Source of the DNA: Planctomycetota bacterium
GTDB lineage: Bacteria > Planctomycetota > Planctomycetia > Pirellulales > Pirellulaceae
DNA length: 64,000 nt
Direction: 5' to 3'
Assembly: GCA_014381825.1 (NCBI GenBank)
Contig: JACNKX010000149.1
Span: 124,001 to 188,000, forward strand
A model generated the notes under the pieces. The model had not been told where the DNA came from, searched no databases, and was given only the letters and a program-made list of their open reading frames with translations. A program made the position numbers and the translations under genes. How positions within the stretch are numbered: the stretch's first letter is position 1; the number at the start of each line of letters is the position of its first letter. Of this stretch, positions 35,801-44,800 are shown one piece after another.

Positions 35801-38800
35801 AACCAATCAACTCGGTTGAGCGAATCGCAGAAGATCATATCGATGGCAACTTCTTCGGTACTTCGTCGTTCTTCAGTACCAATCCAATTGGCAACGAGCA
35901 GTTGCCCGTGCTGTTCGACAGCAACAACTTTAACACAGGCACTAATACTAATAGCACCAGCGCCGTACCGTTCCACTTGGGCGATGTCAATCTCTTCGTC
36001 AGTCGCGATGTTGGCTTGTTTGGTAACACGAGTTCGACCGTCTATATGGTCGATCCGTTTACTGGGGAGCAGGAAGTCACGATCGGATCGTTCTCCGGCG
36101 ACGCTGGGGATATCGCGATGCGCGAAGATGGTCGTCTGTTTGGATTCCAGACACGTGCGCAAAACGGCAATAGTGCAGATGGCGATACCCGAACCTATTT
36201 CAACGTCAACTTCAACAATGGCACGGCTGCAAGAACCGACGCAGGCAGCACCAATCTGACCACCTACGTTCTTGACGCGGCTGGCACCGGCCTCGACGTC
36301 TCTCCGTTGGGAAACAACAACGACGGTGTTGGCTTCCGAATCAACGCTATCGATTACCAAGGGACTTTTAACAGTGCGGGCTGGCTTGTTGGCAGCCGAG
36401 ACGACGACCGGTTCGGGGCCGGGTTCGAGTATGGTGCGAATATTCTCTACAATTTCGATATCCGCAATGGTTCGATTCCCGGTAACGACAAGGCCAACAA
36501 CGTTGGTCGGCTTTCGGGCGGCGGGATGCAAGAATTCGACCGAGGTCAAATTCTCACGTCGACAAAAGTCATACCGCTGAACGCGGCGACCGGCGATACT
36601 TTCACGTTGACGTTGGGTAACGAGAGCATCAGCTATACGGCGCAGGGCGTGGGTGGGCCATTGTTTCCTCTGGAAGGCGAAGTCGTGGCCGGTCTTCAGG
36701 CTGCATGGAATCAGGCCGCCCTCACCAAGCCCGAGTTTAACGCGTTTCAAGTAACACAAACGACCGAGTCGCAATTCTTGGTTCAAGGTCGGGTCCCGGC
36801 ATTGGATATCGAGTTGATCGATCCGCTCGGCGCTAGTATCGCGCCTGGTCCTTCGGGAAGCATTTTCTCGGGCTTCGCCACCGACGGTGGTATGAGCGGT
36901 GGCCTGGGTGGTTTCTTTAGCGAAGACTTGCTGGTGGATGGCTTCGGTCCGGGCGGAACGATTACCGGTTTGGCGATTCCGGAAAATACCTTTGGTACTG
37001 CGTATGCTGTTTCTGATGAGGGCGGATTGTGGGAAGTCGACCTTTTCGGCGGCTTCGGCGGCACCGGCAATGTCGGTGACTACGTCGAGACCTCAGCGGT
37101 CGACTTGCTCGTTGGCGACTTCGGTTCGCGGGTTCAGTTTGAAGGATTGGCCTTTGGTCCCCCGGACCTCTCGAACGGGGCTTATGCAAATACGTTGTTC
37201 GCGATTGATGGCAGCGGTGACTTGTGGGCGATGAACACAGTCGGTTCTCTGCAACCGATTTTCGAGAACGGTGCCCTGTCCGTTTCGACGAACCTTTCCA
37301 GTGCAACCGGCTTGGATTTTTCGACTCTTGACGAAAACCTTTGGCACGTGACGAGCAATCGTGGCGCGGATCCGGGCCACGGTATCGAATCGACGTTGGA
37401 TGGTCGCGGGTCGCTCACGGGCGGAAGTAGTTTCTACTTCGGAAACGAGGAATTTGGCGGCGGCAACAATTCAAGTGACGGCATCGCGGGCGGCAACTTT
37501 AATCAGCGGATTCGCGACTACAATTTCCCCGGCGGGGCTCACGGTACGTTGCAGAGCAATCCATTCAGCTTGGAAGGCTATGTGCCTGCGGACCAACCCG
37601 TACTGTACTTCAACTATTTCCTTGATACGGAAGATACCGAATACGACCCAGATGCGAATCCCACCAATTTCATGCGAGATGCGCTCCGCGTCTACGTTGT
37701 GAATGAAGATGGAGAGACCACGCTGGTTGCGACGAGCGATTTGTTCCAAGACGAGCGATCGGACGAGTTCGATATCGGCCAGAATGAGATATTTAATTTT
37801 GGAGGTTCCTGTAATCATCCAGACGGCGTGTTCGTCGGCCAGGAAAATCGCAATACTCCCTGCGTTCAGCCGCTGTTCGAGACGCAGACTAACGCCCAGA
37901 ATGACCAACAATGGCGTCAGGCACGGATCGACTTGGACCGTTTCGCGGGACAAAAGAATCTGAAATTGCGATTCGATTTTAGCACAGCCGCATCGTTCGA
38001 CTTTGGTAACATCAGCAATACAGGCGAGGAGTTGCGAGCGATCCCTGGCGCGGATGTTCGTGATGCTCAAATCGTCACCGTTCGAAATGGCAACACGTTC
38101 CAGACGACAACTCTCGAGTTCGATGCGGGGGTTACGCTAGTCGCTCCCACGGGTGCGAATATCAATCAAGGTGACGCATTTTCTCTCGACAATGGCGTCG
38201 ACCCGGCAGTTACGTTTGAGTTTAACGCGGACGGATTCTTCTCTAGCAGTCTCTCCGTGCCTGCTGCCGACCTGTTTGGCGATGGCGATGTTTTCCAAGT
38301 TGCCGACGGTGTGGCAACACAGCCATTCGCTTTCGAGTTTGATAGCGGGTTCACTTTGACCGTGCCACCCGCGGGCGCTGGCGCAGCTGGAGTCGCCGAT
38401 GGTGATTCCTTCACGATGACGGACGGCGTATCGAGTAGTGTTGAGTTTGAGTTCGACAGCGATGGCGTCATTGGCAGTTCGACACCCGTCAACATCGCTC
38501 CCAATCGCGTGTTAACAGTGGCTAGCGTTGGTGCTGGAGTTGCACAGGTCGATGAAGGAGATACGTTCACCGTCGACGATGGCCTGGGCGGTGTTGTCAC
38601 ATTCGAGTTTGACCGAGACGGTACGTTCACGGGAACTAATACGCGAATCGATATTGCGGATCAACAAATCCTATCCGTGCCGTTTGCGGCGACTGGTTTT
38701 GGTGGCGTCTCGGACGGCGACCTGTTCGCGGTCAACGAGGGGCTCGGTGGACCCGATGTTGTCTTCGAGTTTGATAACGACGGGGCATTTATCGACGGCA

Positions 38801-41800
38801 ACGCGGACCTCGTGCCGGACAACGAGTTGATTAATATCTCGGATCACATTTTTATCGACGTCCCGTTTCCTGGGCTAGGACCGGGAGGTGTGATGGACGG
38901 TGATAATTTCGCCGTTACCGTTGGCACAACGACGACGACGTTTGAGTTCGACACGGATGGAACGGTGACCGGCAGTCGGATCCCGGTTATTCTCGACATG
39001 TCGCTAGTAGCGGTTCAACGGACCAATGTTGCTAACGCGATGGTTGCGGCGATCAACGGCGCAGCAATCGGCGTCAGCGCGCAACGGATCGGTGCTGGGA
39101 CGGTGCGTCTCCGTAATCCCGATCCTTCCGTCACCGTCGATTTGACGGCGGCCGCTAGTCTGTCGGAGGCGCGAGTTGGATTGACTCAGCGGGAGCTAAC
39201 CGACCTCATTACGACTGCGATAACCAACGCCGCTTCGCTGAGCGTGACCGCAGTGCGCGAAGGCTCAGGAAGAGTTGTTCTCGTCAACTCGACGGCAGGG
39301 CACGTCATCACCGTTGCAAGTCCCGCCACGCTAATTGCGTCGTCGCGGGCGCTCTCACAATCTGTTGTAACTCAACGGACGTTGAATGCGATTCAACTGA
39401 GTGGCTTTGCGATCAACGCTGGACCGTTAACAACAGGGCAAATCCGGTTCACGAACGCGAATCCATCCACGATATTTAGTATATCGGGATCGGGCGGAAT
39501 AAGCAGTTTCACGATTGCACTTAGTCAAGACGAAGTCGCGGATCGTATTGTCAGCGCCGTTAACGGTACTTCGCTCGGGCTTACATCCTCCAACCTTGGT
39601 AGCGGTGACGTTCATCTCGGCGGCGATGCACACACGATTGACATCGCGAGTACTCCGACCTTGACCGTCGCTGGTGCGGCTGGCATCACGACGCTCGGAG
39701 CGACACGACTCGCCTTCGATCCGTCGGCCAACGCCAATCAGATGGCGATTTCGATTGCAAACGCAATTGCCACCGCGACCGCAACCACGGCCGCGCGATC
39801 CGGTAACTTGGTCGGGCTGGGAGCAGGTGCGACGTTCAATCCAGGAACGTCCCCGATCACTCCCGATGGAATTGTGCCTGTTTTATTTGCGGACGACCTA
39901 AGTGCGGACGAAGTCGCTCAGAACATCGAGGCGGCGATCCTGGGAGTCGGCTTGGCTGGTACTGGTGGTGGCGTGACATCTCAGTTCATCACCGAACCCA
40001 ATGACTTGCCGCCGAACACGTTCGACAGCGGGATTTCTGGAACTGGTGCGTTTCGCGGGACGGGGATTATGGGCGATGGATTGACGTTCACCGGTTTTGA
40101 CCAGGACGTTATCGCGGTGACGTTGAACGCTGGCGACACCATTTCGATTGACGTTGATACTTTTGGCGGGACGCTGGATGCACTCGTCGGTTTCGTAGAC
40201 CCCGCGTTTACACAATTTCTACTGTTAAGCTTTGATGATCCCGCGCCCGGTGAGACACCTTCGCTCGACCCATATATCGAGACAACGGTGACGACCGGTG
40301 GCACCTACTTTGCTTTGGTGCGAGCTGAAAGTGGTAGCGGTGCTTATGATATCGAAATCTCCGTTAACGGAAGTGGGACATTCGCCTCCTCTGGTGGTGT
40401 CTTCCGTAGCGAGCATCGCGTGAATCTCCCTGGCATTGCCATTGCGAGGAGTGCCGATTTGGCGGCCTTCTTCATCGAAGGCGACCAAGGTGTGGCTTCC
40501 AATAACACGCCGATTCACATCAACTCAGCGATGTCTGATTTCCAGGTTGCTGATGCGATCGCGCGAGCAACCTCCGGGGCGCTGGCTGGCTATGAGACCA
40601 CGATTTTGGCGAGAGATGGCTCTCAAATCACGGATGGCGATACTTTCACGGTATCGAATGTTCCAGATATTCAACCAAGCTCCGCGTTGCTCTTTGAGAC
40701 TAATGACACGCTTGGAAACGCCGTGTTCAGCGGATTGACCGGGGGAGCTGGATTCTATTCGGCCTCTGGCCAAATTGGTGACAACTTCCAAGTGACGACG
40801 AATCCAGCGTTAGATGTCGATTTGATAAGAGTGACTCTGCTGGCCGGCGATACGATCAACGTGGACATCGATGCTGCCGAACTCGGTTCGACCTTAGATT
40901 CCACCTTAGTGTTGTTTGATTCGCTGGGGACGGTGGTCGCGATCAATGCCGATGGAGTCGCTCACGGTGAGTTAGCGACAACCGATTCCTACCTTAGCGC
41001 GACGGTCGCGAACGCCGGAACGTATTATGTCGGCGTCAGTGCAGATACAAACAATGCGTACAATCCGTTGCTGCAGGGAAGCGGTGCCACGGCGACGACG
41101 ACCGGAACCTACAGTCTTGAAATCAGTCTCAATGAACACAACTCAGCCACATTCGAGTTTGATGCGGGCATCGTGCTTACGATACCCGAACCGCTGACGT
41201 TGCAAGTACCCAACAGCGGCGGGTTCGGCGGATTCGGCAGCCTTGTGTCCGACGGCGAGACTTTTTCGATTAGCGACGGCACCACTGTTGTCAATTTTGA
41301 GCTTGATCGCAATGGGTTCGTCTTCGGCTTGAACACGCCTGTCCCATTCACGTTTTTCTCTACGCAGGATGACATCGCGAAGAGCATTGCGAACGTGCTA
41401 TCGAACGCGGGCCTTGGATTGAATCCAAGCAACTTGGGCAACGGACAAGTATTACTTGGCGCGCAAGCGAACCACACGCTGAATCTCTCCGGAAGCTTCA
41501 ATCTGTCACAGACCGGACAGTCATCATCGCTTGCAGACGGCGAGGCATTCTTGATCAACGATGGAGTTGGTGGTGGGAATGTCGTATTCGAATTTGACAC
41601 TGACCTAATGACTGCGCTCGGTTCAATTCCAGTGTCGATCGTAGATACCGGAATCACTATTCCGGCGGCTGGTGGTGCGACGCTGGCGGGTGGTGTCGCC
41701 GATGGCGAGATTTTTTCAATTGACGATGGACAAGGAGGGTTACCGGTCTCCTTCGAGTTTGATAGCGACGGTCTTCTTACGACCCTGACAAACACACCGA

Positions 41801-44800
41801 TCCCCTTTTTCGATGACAGCATTCGGCCGCCGGCGGCAACGGTGTTGAGTGCCGGCATTAACAACACGGTGTTAACTATTCCAGTGGTCGACAGTTCCCA
41901 ATTTGCCTCGCACACGCTGCCCTTTGATATCCTCGTTGACACCGAACAGATGCGTGTCACTGCCATCAACGCGAATGATCTGACCGTGATACGGCCTGTT
42001 AACTTTACGGCGGCAGCAGCCCACGGTATTAACGCCGTCGTGCGGGCAGTGTCTATTATCCCGCCATCAACGCAAGATCAGCTAGTTGATGCGATCGTCG
42101 CTGTACTGGACAACGCAGGGCTCGGCCTCAGCCCGATCAATTCCGGTTTGGGTGCCGTCCGACTTAACACGAATGGCCACGTCGCATCGGTGATTTCCGC
42201 CCCGTCCCTTGGCTTGACCGCTTTGCCGCAGACCAGGGACCAAATTACGGCTGGTGTTCTGTCTGCAATTAGTGGTGCGGGGACCGGCGTTGTCGCGACA
42301 AGTCTCGGCGGTGGACAAATTCAGCTTGCGGGAACCACGCAGTTTGTTGACTCGTCTGGTACAGCCGCGTTGACCCAAACTGGAACGATCGGAGCGTCGA
42401 CCGCAGATGCGATCGTTATACCTTACACACCGACGCTCGTCTTTACGGCGAACGATGCAGCGCAGGCGATTTCCTCGGCGATACGTTCTGCCTCGTTGGA
42501 CATAGCAACTGTCGTCTCTGGTCGTCGTATCGAGCTCAGTGGTCAAGACATTGCGGTGAACTTGGCCGGAACTTTCGCGCTCTCCAGCGAGTCACCCAAT
42601 AACGCGATTACGACCGAGCGAGAATTAGTGCGACTGATTGGCGGACAACTGATCAGTCAAGACCTGGGGCCGTTTGGAGTTCAGCTTCTGGGGTTTGAGG
42701 ATGTCCTCGCGGGCGACGAATTTGGGGCGTACTCGCTCTCACGCGTTAATTCGGCGGCCTACCCAGCTGCGCTGCGGGCGCTCGACAATGCTCACGAAGG
42801 CGTCTATATCGATGACGTAATCATCGGATTTGCCGAACGTGGTGAGATGGTACTCAATTCAGGCGACAACACGATCATTGATGAGAATTTTGAACTGATC
42901 AACGACGAGTTGGAGGGCTTTCACGACCTGACGTTGGTTGGCGACTATCAACTCGAAATACGAGCAGGCGATGACTTCGGTGAATTTGCGAGTGGCACCT
43001 TCGCGGGTACATCGGGAGTTGCCGTCCTTACGGGCCTCAACACGAATTCACGCGCCGCATCTCAGTACACACTGATCGCGAACCCCGGAGCCGTGATTGC
43101 TGACGGCGACACTTTCGAGATTACTGACGGGATCCATAGTCGAACGTTCGAGTTTGACGATCTTTCGGGAGTCGTCGGCTTGGGCGTCGTGCCGGGTCAT
43201 GTTCGGATCGGTTATTTACCCGCTGATGACGCCAATGGAATCGCTGAGCGGATGCGAGATGCGATTAACGCCGAGCATCTTGCCGGTGGGTTTGCGATCT
43301 CGGCATCGCTTTCGGATGGTACTGATAGCGGGCCGGACAGCACGGGCTCGATGGTGGATCTGGTTGGCGATGTCGTCTTTTTCGGATCGCAAGGTATCAA
43401 CGCACAGGTTAACGCGGGGTATGCGATTGATAACGACGAGCTGTTCCGGTTCGAGAACACTTCACAAAGCGGCGAGAAGATCGATTCAATCACGCTGTCG
43501 CTGCCTGGCGGACTAAGTTTCAATACCGTGCTTCGGTCTGGTACAGCTGGGTTCAACGTGCATCGCAGTTCGAACCAAGTCGGTGCCGAGTTCACGTCGC
43601 TCAATCCCGATGAGATCACGATTGACTTCTCGCGTTTCGGGGCTGGGCAAAAATTCGTCTTCGGTCTTGATATCTTCGATGGAAGTTTCTTCAACCGCTT
43701 TGGTGCCGCACTGGGCCGCAACTTGGTCGGCGCAACGGCGACAATACGCTTCGATAGTGGCCGAGAAGTCATTGACACATTCACCCGGTTGCCGTCTGAC
43801 GGCGGCGTCGCCACCGTGCTGGGTGGAGATCATCAAATCACCGCCGTCGCGTTCTCCGGTCAAAGCGATCAGAACACGCACCGCGACCAAGGTCAAATTA
43901 TTGTCCACTCAAATCAAATCTCTGATTCGCAGGAATTCGCGATCATTTCCGATGCCGGCGCTCGCACACGAAACGACCTTGCGACGCTTGCCGGCAATAC
44001 GGCACATCCTGGTCCGCCAATCAACTTTGACAGTACGAACAATCAGAATCTTGCTCCGGGGCCGGTGATCGCGAACAATGTTATTTCCGGTGGTGGCCAG
44101 GGCGGCATTCTGTTTAGCGGCGATACGAATAATGGACAACAAGGAGCCGTACCTTTCGGGCGGATAGTCAATAACACGATCTACGGCGACATTGCGGCGT
44201 TCGCCGGCATTCAAGTTGAACAGTCGGCGAGCCCCACGTTGCTCAATAACATAGTCGCGGGATCATTCATCGGCGTCTCGGTGGATAATACCTCACTCTC
44301 GACCGTGATAGGGGCCACCTTATTCAAAGACAACGCCTTCAATGGAGTTATTGGCGGAACTGTTTTTGATTCGGCCACCGGAGTCGGTTCCGCTCCAATC
44401 GTACTGACTTCCACAGATCCGTTATTCGTCAACGCGGCCAGTGACAATTTCTACCCACAGGCTAATTCCCAGGCGATTGACAGTTCGCTTGACTCGTTGC
44501 AAGACCGTGACGATTTTGCCAATCGCATAAAAGCACCCCTTGGGATTGGACCGTCGCCAATTCTCGCACCCGATCGAGACGCGTTTGGTCAACTCCGCGT
44601 TGACGACCCGCTCGTTAGCACACCAGCCGCTCAGGGTTCTAACGTATTCAAAGACCGTGGTGCGCTGGATCGGGCGGATGTCACAGGACCGACTGCGATT
44701 CTGGTTAATCCGCGTGATAACGATGCGGAAGGTAACGATCTGGATCGCAGCACGACATTCGTCCGCTTGGATCGTGAGGGACTGTCTAATTTCGAAATCC

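Follow-up and report, generated by a model that had tools for sequence, protein, structure and literature searches.

The window analysed here, a stretch of 64,000 nucleotides from a Planctomycetota bacterium of the family Pirellulaceae (GenBank assembly GCA_014381825.1, contig JACNKX010000149.1, positions 124,001 to 188,000 of the forward strand), carries within the giant open reading frame (ORF) P0001 an array of repeat halves whose order reads as a balanced bracket string. The array has very probably arisen by repeated insertion of one domain unit into copies of itself within a loop of a host domain, each split unit folding as one domain through mirror pairing of its halves. The unit has about 91 residues and consists of strands S1, S2 and S3, a helix and further strands, of which the N and C halves are the two parts. 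Halves at all levels of the array match one common set of unit models, which makes the host unit and the unit inserted in it homologous. There are 11 N and 11 C halves, at residues 3757-5268 of P0001 (window 38053-42588, forward strand, as are all features below), and they form a seven-deep nest followed by a four-unit block, both within the host domain.

Order of the halves in the window

Three profiles, for the N half, for the C half and for a C half led by S3, were built from the window first and then from relatives. The string called by machine, ((((((()))))))((()(())), has 12 opening and 11 closing matches; N8, interrupted by a pre-peptidase domain (PPC2), accounts for two of the openings, which leaves 11 halves of each kind and the string ((((((()))))))(()(())). 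An initial annotation of the window, made by eye, had described seven N halves in a row, six C halves in a row and then mixed blocks, with about 12 halves of each kind, and had read the whole as a closed bracket expression. The seven successive N halves (N1-N7, 38053-39003) and the closed expression are borne out, and separate N and C profiles give equal numbers, although 11 rather than 12 of each; seven C halves, not six, follow at 39004-40590, and the halves that continue beyond them form a second balanced block instead of a mixture. A simple N-C-N-C order does not describe a first block that opens with seven N halves, whereas plain tandem N-C repeats of the unit do recur later in P0001, at residues 6130-6421. 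As a measure of chance, the profiles gave one match in total in 13 shuffled arrays and four in three other stretches of the two giant proteins. Tandem Repeats Finder returned one row only within the array region, an 18-bp repeat of 2.2 copies.

Two kinds of interruption are distinguished. In type A, the N half stops after S2 and its partner C half starts with S3, while in type B the N half keeps S3 and its partner starts at the helix. The nest opens after the N-terminal segment of the host domain (LKLRFDFSTA...GEELRA, 37951-38040), a flank present in 26 of the 40 relatives searched. The outermost half N1 (38053-38148) and N3 (38275-38367), both defined by profile matches, are of type A, as is N2 (38161-38235), which adjoins its C half in two-deep relatives. 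N4 (38389-38505) and N5 (38545-38664), recognized by profile matches and the test of S3 described below, are of type B, and so is N6 (38704-38844), which has a short insert before S3. The innermost unit, N7+C1 (38887-39174), is contiguous. The way back passes through seven C halves, four of them plain and three starting with S3. C2 (39175-39348) and C3 (39349-39513) are assigned as the mirror partners of N6 and N5 by S3 score, C4 (39514-39675) as that of N4 by the S3 test, and C5 (39676-39864), which starts with S3, as that of N3 by profile matches and the S3 test. C6, the partner of N2, is itself split by a pre-peptidase domain. Its first part, S3 and helix (39865-39960), is the array's best match of a strand-helix profile of C6 from two-deep arrays (21.6 bits); then come the domain PPC1 (39991-40371) and the C6 tail (HRVNLPG...FFIEGDQG, 40408-40491). 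C7 (40492-40590), found by profile matches, starts with S3 and closes N1.

The second block (40618-42588) runs N8, N9C9, N10, N11, C11, C10, C8. N8 consists of a first part (GSQITDGDTFTVSN, 40618-40659), PPC2 (40660-41136) and a second part assigned by coordinates (NSATFEFDAGIVLTIP, 41140-41187). Within unit 8 lie the contiguous unit N9+C9 (41242-41517; 95.9 bits to the unit model) and then N10 (41530-41646) and N11 (41692-41820), both from profile matches. An unrelated insert of 81 amino acids (aa) (ATVLSAGINNTVLTIPVVDSSQF...EQMRVTAI, 41821-42063) separates N11 from C11 (42064-42219; profile matches). C10 (42229-42384; profile matches and S3 test) closes N10, and C8 (42394-42588; S3 test and score), which starts with S3, closes N8. 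The host domain's C-terminal segment (VRLIGG...EGVYIDDVIIGFAERGEMV, 42628-42852), conserved in relatives, follows. The family PF04151 passes its Pfam cut-off over the region (E 7e-07, 30.5 bits vs 25.9) in two stretches, the better of which, residues 4677-4753, is PPC2. The tool locates only this best stretch, and PPC1 was assigned by eye as the second; two-deep relatives such as L037, L072 and L101 have an insert at the same place. The earlier description placed two pre-peptidase domains in the string, and the one that it set within an N half, at GDTFTVSN / SATFEFDAG, is confirmed as PPC2 in N8.

P0001 is one intact ORF of 8984 aa (26785-53739), of which the region under study is residues 3762-5312. 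In Pfam and NCBIfam scans it begins near its N-terminus with an M36 fungalysin domain, contains tandem-95/Big_9 repeats and has a dockerin close to its C-terminus; in the Pfam scan a Planc_extracel match in the window stays below cut-off, and together with the dockerin and Big_9 domains it gives the genome a planctomycete-like character. It is probably a giant secreted protein. A second giant ORF, P0002, covers window 1-26463 (an open frame of 10674 aa over the full contig), and the two occupy most of the window. P0002 has the host domain uninterrupted, its two flank motifs spanning 40 residues, and, besides, a single N-half match around residue 2550.

Mirror pairing and predicted structures

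Strand S3 provides a mark by which the partners of interrupted units can be matched. In interrupted pairs it lies on the N half or on the mirror-placed C half and seldom on both, and along the seven-deep nest of the window the types run A A A B B B, contiguous N7C1, B B B A A A. Among the nine interrupted pairs of the window, S3 scores higher on the expected side in all nine, and a yes/no call fits in seven. In the 13 deep arrays, exactly one S3 per pair is found in 75 of 89 interrupted pairs under mirror pairing vs 39 of 89 under same-order pairing, and 20000 shuffles of the partners gave a mean of 50.3 and a maximum of 67; the second match of the split N8 had been removed before this count. 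For the continuous S3 score, the 89 pairs give r = -0.611 under mirror pairing and 0.068 in the same order, and no shuffle out of 5000 reached so low a value. Restriction to a single array from each family (8 arrays, 53 pairs) gives -0.709 and 0.113, again with 0/5000 shuffles as low, and 10 strictly new arrays (44 pairs) give -0.649 and -0.043, likewise with none of 5000 as low.

Two models were predicted with AlphaFold2. The doublet N6(N7C1)C2, from 15 sequences, reached a predicted local distance difference test score (pLDDT) of 85.8 and a predicted template modelling score (pTM) of 0.75, and in it the order of strands and helix is identical in the outer and the inner unit. The rows returned by VIA-align for the doublet fall mainly into two groups, the inner unit and the outer split unit, and most rows other than those of the outer unit cover the inner unit alone. 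The inner unit (about model residues 62-177) has its best match in 8kee_C, a phage sheath-tube chain, with Z 10.5 and a root-mean-square deviation (rmsd) of 2.0 over 89 aligned residues. The outer split unit, from model residue 1-2 to 231-234, is aligned in 10 of 50 rows over 87-96 residues (Z 5.7-8.3), and nine of these ten lie on chain stretches of 101-125 residues; among them are 8fqc_K1 (Z 8.3, rmsd 2.6, 91 aligned, chain 93-199), 7y22_Y (Z 8.1, 87 aligned) and 5fhy_A, a FliD (Z 6.8, 95 aligned). Four rows span both units with rmsd >6. These alignments suggest that the outer N and the outer C half of the doublet fold as one flagellin/tail-sheath-like domain round the inner unit. The predicted model matches the flagellin, FliD and tail-sheath fold over most of one domain, a statement about shared fold only. 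A larger model, of residues 3746-4605 from nine aligned arrays, has pLDDT mostly between 70 and 90 over model residues 40-640; in it 5fhy_A aligns 86 residues between 109 and 552 (Z 5.7), consistent with a pairing of N4 and C4.

Halves close in mirror order round the insert in the sequence and, for one doublet, apparently also in a predicted model. The initial annotation had named as support for its reading that the innermost N and C halves fold together and that the outer halves pair in mirrored order. The first is in keeping with the contiguity of N7C1 and the modelled match of the inner unit, the second with the complementarity of S3 and with the doublet; structure prediction supports it for the doublet, where outer N and C appear in one domain, and less firmly for the larger block.

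If the N and C halves were instead separate domains, each duplicated in tandem independently, their equal counts would be coincidental. The local runs NNNNNNN and CCCC do resemble two simple repeats, but S3 stands on one of two mirror partners, the order is mirrored, a contiguous N+C is a single unit elsewhere in P0001 and in two-deep relatives, and the outer N and C seem to co-fold in the model. We regard separate domains as highly improbable.

Relatives, depth series and growth

Arrays of this kind occupy one site of the host domain, between the motifs RFDFSTAG...ELRA and EGxYIDDxxIGFAERGE, and they form a series of depths. The site is empty in L125, L031 and P0002, with 37-40 residues between the flank motifs. 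In two-deep arrays, (()), the gap between N2 and C6 is -2 to 5 residues in 17 of the 25 listed and 9-14 in three more; the other five have gaps of at least 27, owing to misplaced matches or a different architecture. The two-deep profiles were cut by hand from 17 arrays, so the gaps in these partly repeat the cutting. In the window N2 and C6 lie about 545 residues apart, with five further units between them. In all 13 deep arrays the C6-tail profile scores best at the expected place. L151 is parsed as three-deep by machine, and L143 was judged so by eye. Five levels occur in L056 and L107, six in the groups of L021 and L022, and seven in L025, L061, L148 and the window. A depth of at least five was parsed in 13 genomes, including the window's own, plus the L061 record. 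In L021 (ORF residues about 1455-1506), and also in L065 and L064, a D/N/G-rich insert like calcium-binding DxNxDG repeats lies between two N halves.

L061 is a probable ortholog of the window protein judged by sequence (30% identity over window residues 3692-5508). Its nest is that of the window with one further complete unit, placed between N3 and N4. Its N8 is unsplit, with no PPC at the place of PPC2, and the 81-aa insert beside C11 is likewise absent, while a PPC missing from the window lies in its C2. The apparent ortholog in G001 is split over two contigs within the array, which would suit an artefact of assembly or gene modelling caused by repeats; its N1-N5 nevertheless stand in the same order with 73% identity over 230 residues, and the same kind of nest occurs in other genomes, and we give an artefact practically no credence.

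Balance was scored at E<=1. Ten of the 13 deep arrays of the first set (a label that includes L080, which is four deep) balance, among them arrays of 7/7, 10/10, 11/11, 12/12 and 14/14 halves, and over all depths 24 of 45 do so, ten of them deep. A search of 241 genomes of the family with N1-N4 gave some match in 163 and led to 13 further loci. For seven of these the array was cut at first, L144 being re-cut because it began too late, and six more were cut either with the head profile or manually; L148 lacks an end flank, and its array runs to the end of the locus. Ten arrays count as strictly new, with L143 kept, which shares a contig with an earlier locus but lies elsewhere on it, and L145 (= L107), L152 (= L096) and L150 (5/15 probes shared with L056) left out. 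With frozen models, seven of the ten balance, at 14/14, 13/13, 11/11, 9/9, 6/6, 3/3 and 2/2.

A nested final fold could also have been reached in two steps, with the N half duplicated and then the C half through unbalanced intermediates. The insertion points lie between the halves, so half-unit duplications could yield the same string, and the similarities among N halves and among C halves are only modestly correlated under mirror pairing (r = 0.19, p = 0.005; p = 0.014 when interrupted pairs only are shuffled), although that they correlate at all also speaks for nesting. Against this, no deep array remains unbalanced after inspection: in the window and L021 a half is split in two, in L030 there is an extra match of a profile with a wrong seed stretch, L146 and L149, each one N short, show a degenerate N2 by eye, and in L143 N2 is matched twice. 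Moreover, L061 and the window differ by one whole contiguous unit. Growth by half-units is therefore unlikely.

A little less likely still is a deep nest that was ancestral, the shallower relatives having lost inner units. Outer levels are common to many arrays, and gain and loss predict the same series of depths; yet two-deep forms stand in loci of many different assemblies, and the inner units are not grouped by level across arrays in a tree of units, neither of which is decisive. In that tree, which carries no support values, level-2 units of six of seven arrays cluster.

Several points weigh against recursive self-insertion as the explanation. The yes/no test of S3 is weak on the new arrays (29/44 vs 25, p = 0.055; p = 0.06 before the overlap check), and the continuous score was picked after this outcome. 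The 860-residue whole model is of moderate quality (pLDDT 68.6, pTM 0.46). Pairing in the models was read from the first and last aligned residue only, and Z <8 is common according to the tool's own note, so that the models support the pairing but are not final. Balance depends on the threshold, with 9, 9, 10 and 8 of 13 deep arrays and 5, 7, 7 and 4 of 10 new arrays balancing at E 0.05, 0.3, 1 and 3; the profile models were built on the first set of arrays, and many shallow arrays lack one half or hold other domains. The arrays are related and therefore not independent. The C6 strand-helix profile is best at C6 in 9 of 13 deep arrays, and the N2 profile is best at N2 in 2 of 13, too unspecific for a test of orthology, a use for which it was rejected. 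Loss of inner units would, finally, yield an identical depth series.

Repeated self-insertion remains our preferred account. The unit would have been inserted repeatedly into copies of itself, within one loop of the host domain, at two insertion points, S2/S3 in the three outer levels and in N8 and S3/helix in the inner levels. Each unit would accept an insert either in the turn between S2 and S3 or in the S3-helix loop, and each interrupted unit would still be one domain, built from two separated halves in mirror order. Because the halves pair in this order, the chain would traverse seven domains on its way out and the same seven on its return. We infer that a whole unit was inserted in a single event at each step and that the nest grew inward, starting from an old one of two or three levels. 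The result would be a stiff spike that branches off sideways from the host domain, where tandem repeats would merely lengthen the main chain, and in this peptidase-dockerin protein the spike may have a role in adhesion or display.

The initial annotation had set growth by repeated self-insertion against tandem duplication. Nesting is upheld by the strings, S3, the depth series and the doublet; exclusivity is not, since L074, L080 and L147 also show tandem repetition, of complete units and of complete nested doublets, inside a host unit. L080, (((())(())(())(()))), has a nested doublet four times within two outer levels, and in L074 (ORF residues about 210-1030) similar units stand in tandem within one host unit, with eight closing matches. 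Tandem growth also occurs inside a nest. The evidence leaves it evenly balanced whether recursive insertion is an open growth rule, by which the loop of any unit may take up a single unit, several units in a row or a nested doublet. If the rule is true, a balanced bracket string would describe a rooted tree, and an unbranched polypeptide would encode a branched object, with a seven-domain spike and a forked side arm in the window protein and a trunk with four two-domain arms in L080. Nesting looks like one way for a protein to gain side branches rather than mere length. Counts of half-domains and tandem-repeat tools misread such arrays.

Comparison with known systems

The unit has no family at cut-off in Pfam or NCBIfam. 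With E up to 10, Pfam gives sub-cut-off matches only, such as Peptidase_M60_C (0.016, unit consensus) and LpxR (0.0098, array). Flagellin_IN (PF07196) does not reach its cut-off, with 11.3 bits vs 22.7 for the consensus and no match in two units of the window. A first contig scan of genomes gave no match, and a search with the unit in a sample of the phylum was positive in at least 21 of 294 genomes, no more than 17 candidates being scored in any one of them.

The best structural matches of the unit are domains of contractile phage tail sheaths, 8kee_C and 9cba (Z 10.5, rmsd 2.0-2.3). Foldseek found no match below E 0.001 in the PDB for either model and six in a viral library, the best being a 'Baseplate protein J-like' protein (E 3.8e-12); the BFVD entry A0A6J7WUL1_2, a phage protein of this name, matches the doublet model over 261 columns. 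In sequence, 15 doublets searched against PHROGs gave one weak match each to two families (E 0.079 and 0.086), and protein searches of a collection of annotated phages gave no match, although no search was aimed at deep self-nests in phages. On the IMG/VR contig L141, two viral proteins, L141+2_2469 and L141+0_3781, contain N halves that bear FEFDSD motifs; one of the proteins is sheath-like by eye, and the other has two closely spaced N-half matches. From these N halves, phages are possibly the source of the unit.

The closest solved cellular folds are the outer domains D2/D3 of flagellin (FliC) and FliD (VIA Z 5.5-7.5), to which the sequence link of the unit lies below the Pfam cut-off. In flagellin, D3 is inserted in D2. 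Flagellins are not known to go beyond a few levels of nesting.

Very long planctomycetal proteins are known (PMC6461901), and in the main text of that paper on giant genes the word 'nested' is absent. Our search of the literature on nested or self-inserting domains and on planctomycetal giant proteins found no report of the array, and the claim of novelty is limited to that search. Since self-insertion has here been repeated many times over and relatives exist at several depths, the steps of nested growth can be studied directly, as can the tolerance of a fold to splitting and the folding of a chain of seven interrupted domains.

Domains are gained mostly at the ends of proteins, and insertion is less frequent and mostly single-level, according to PMC11515920 and PMC13114784. 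The same papers describe recursive self-insertion, six levels deep, in the HABAS domains of Si3 of the cyanobacterial RNA polymerase beta' subunit. The earlier view of self-insertion as unusual therefore stands as to rarity and fails as to precedent, HABAS within HABAS having been published. The VIA matches listed for either model include no HABAS or sandwich-barrel hybrid motif fold, which is compatible with such a fold for the unit. The likeness to Si3 is that copies of one domain are placed inside other copies of it. Si3 belongs to a conserved enzyme, and strand swapping is reported for it, whereas the planctomycetal array lies in giant secreted-type proteins, reaches a depth of seven (eight if the host domain is counted) and varies among relatives in the number of units and in branching. 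The array is a deeper and more variable variant of known recursive self-insertion, not a new kind.

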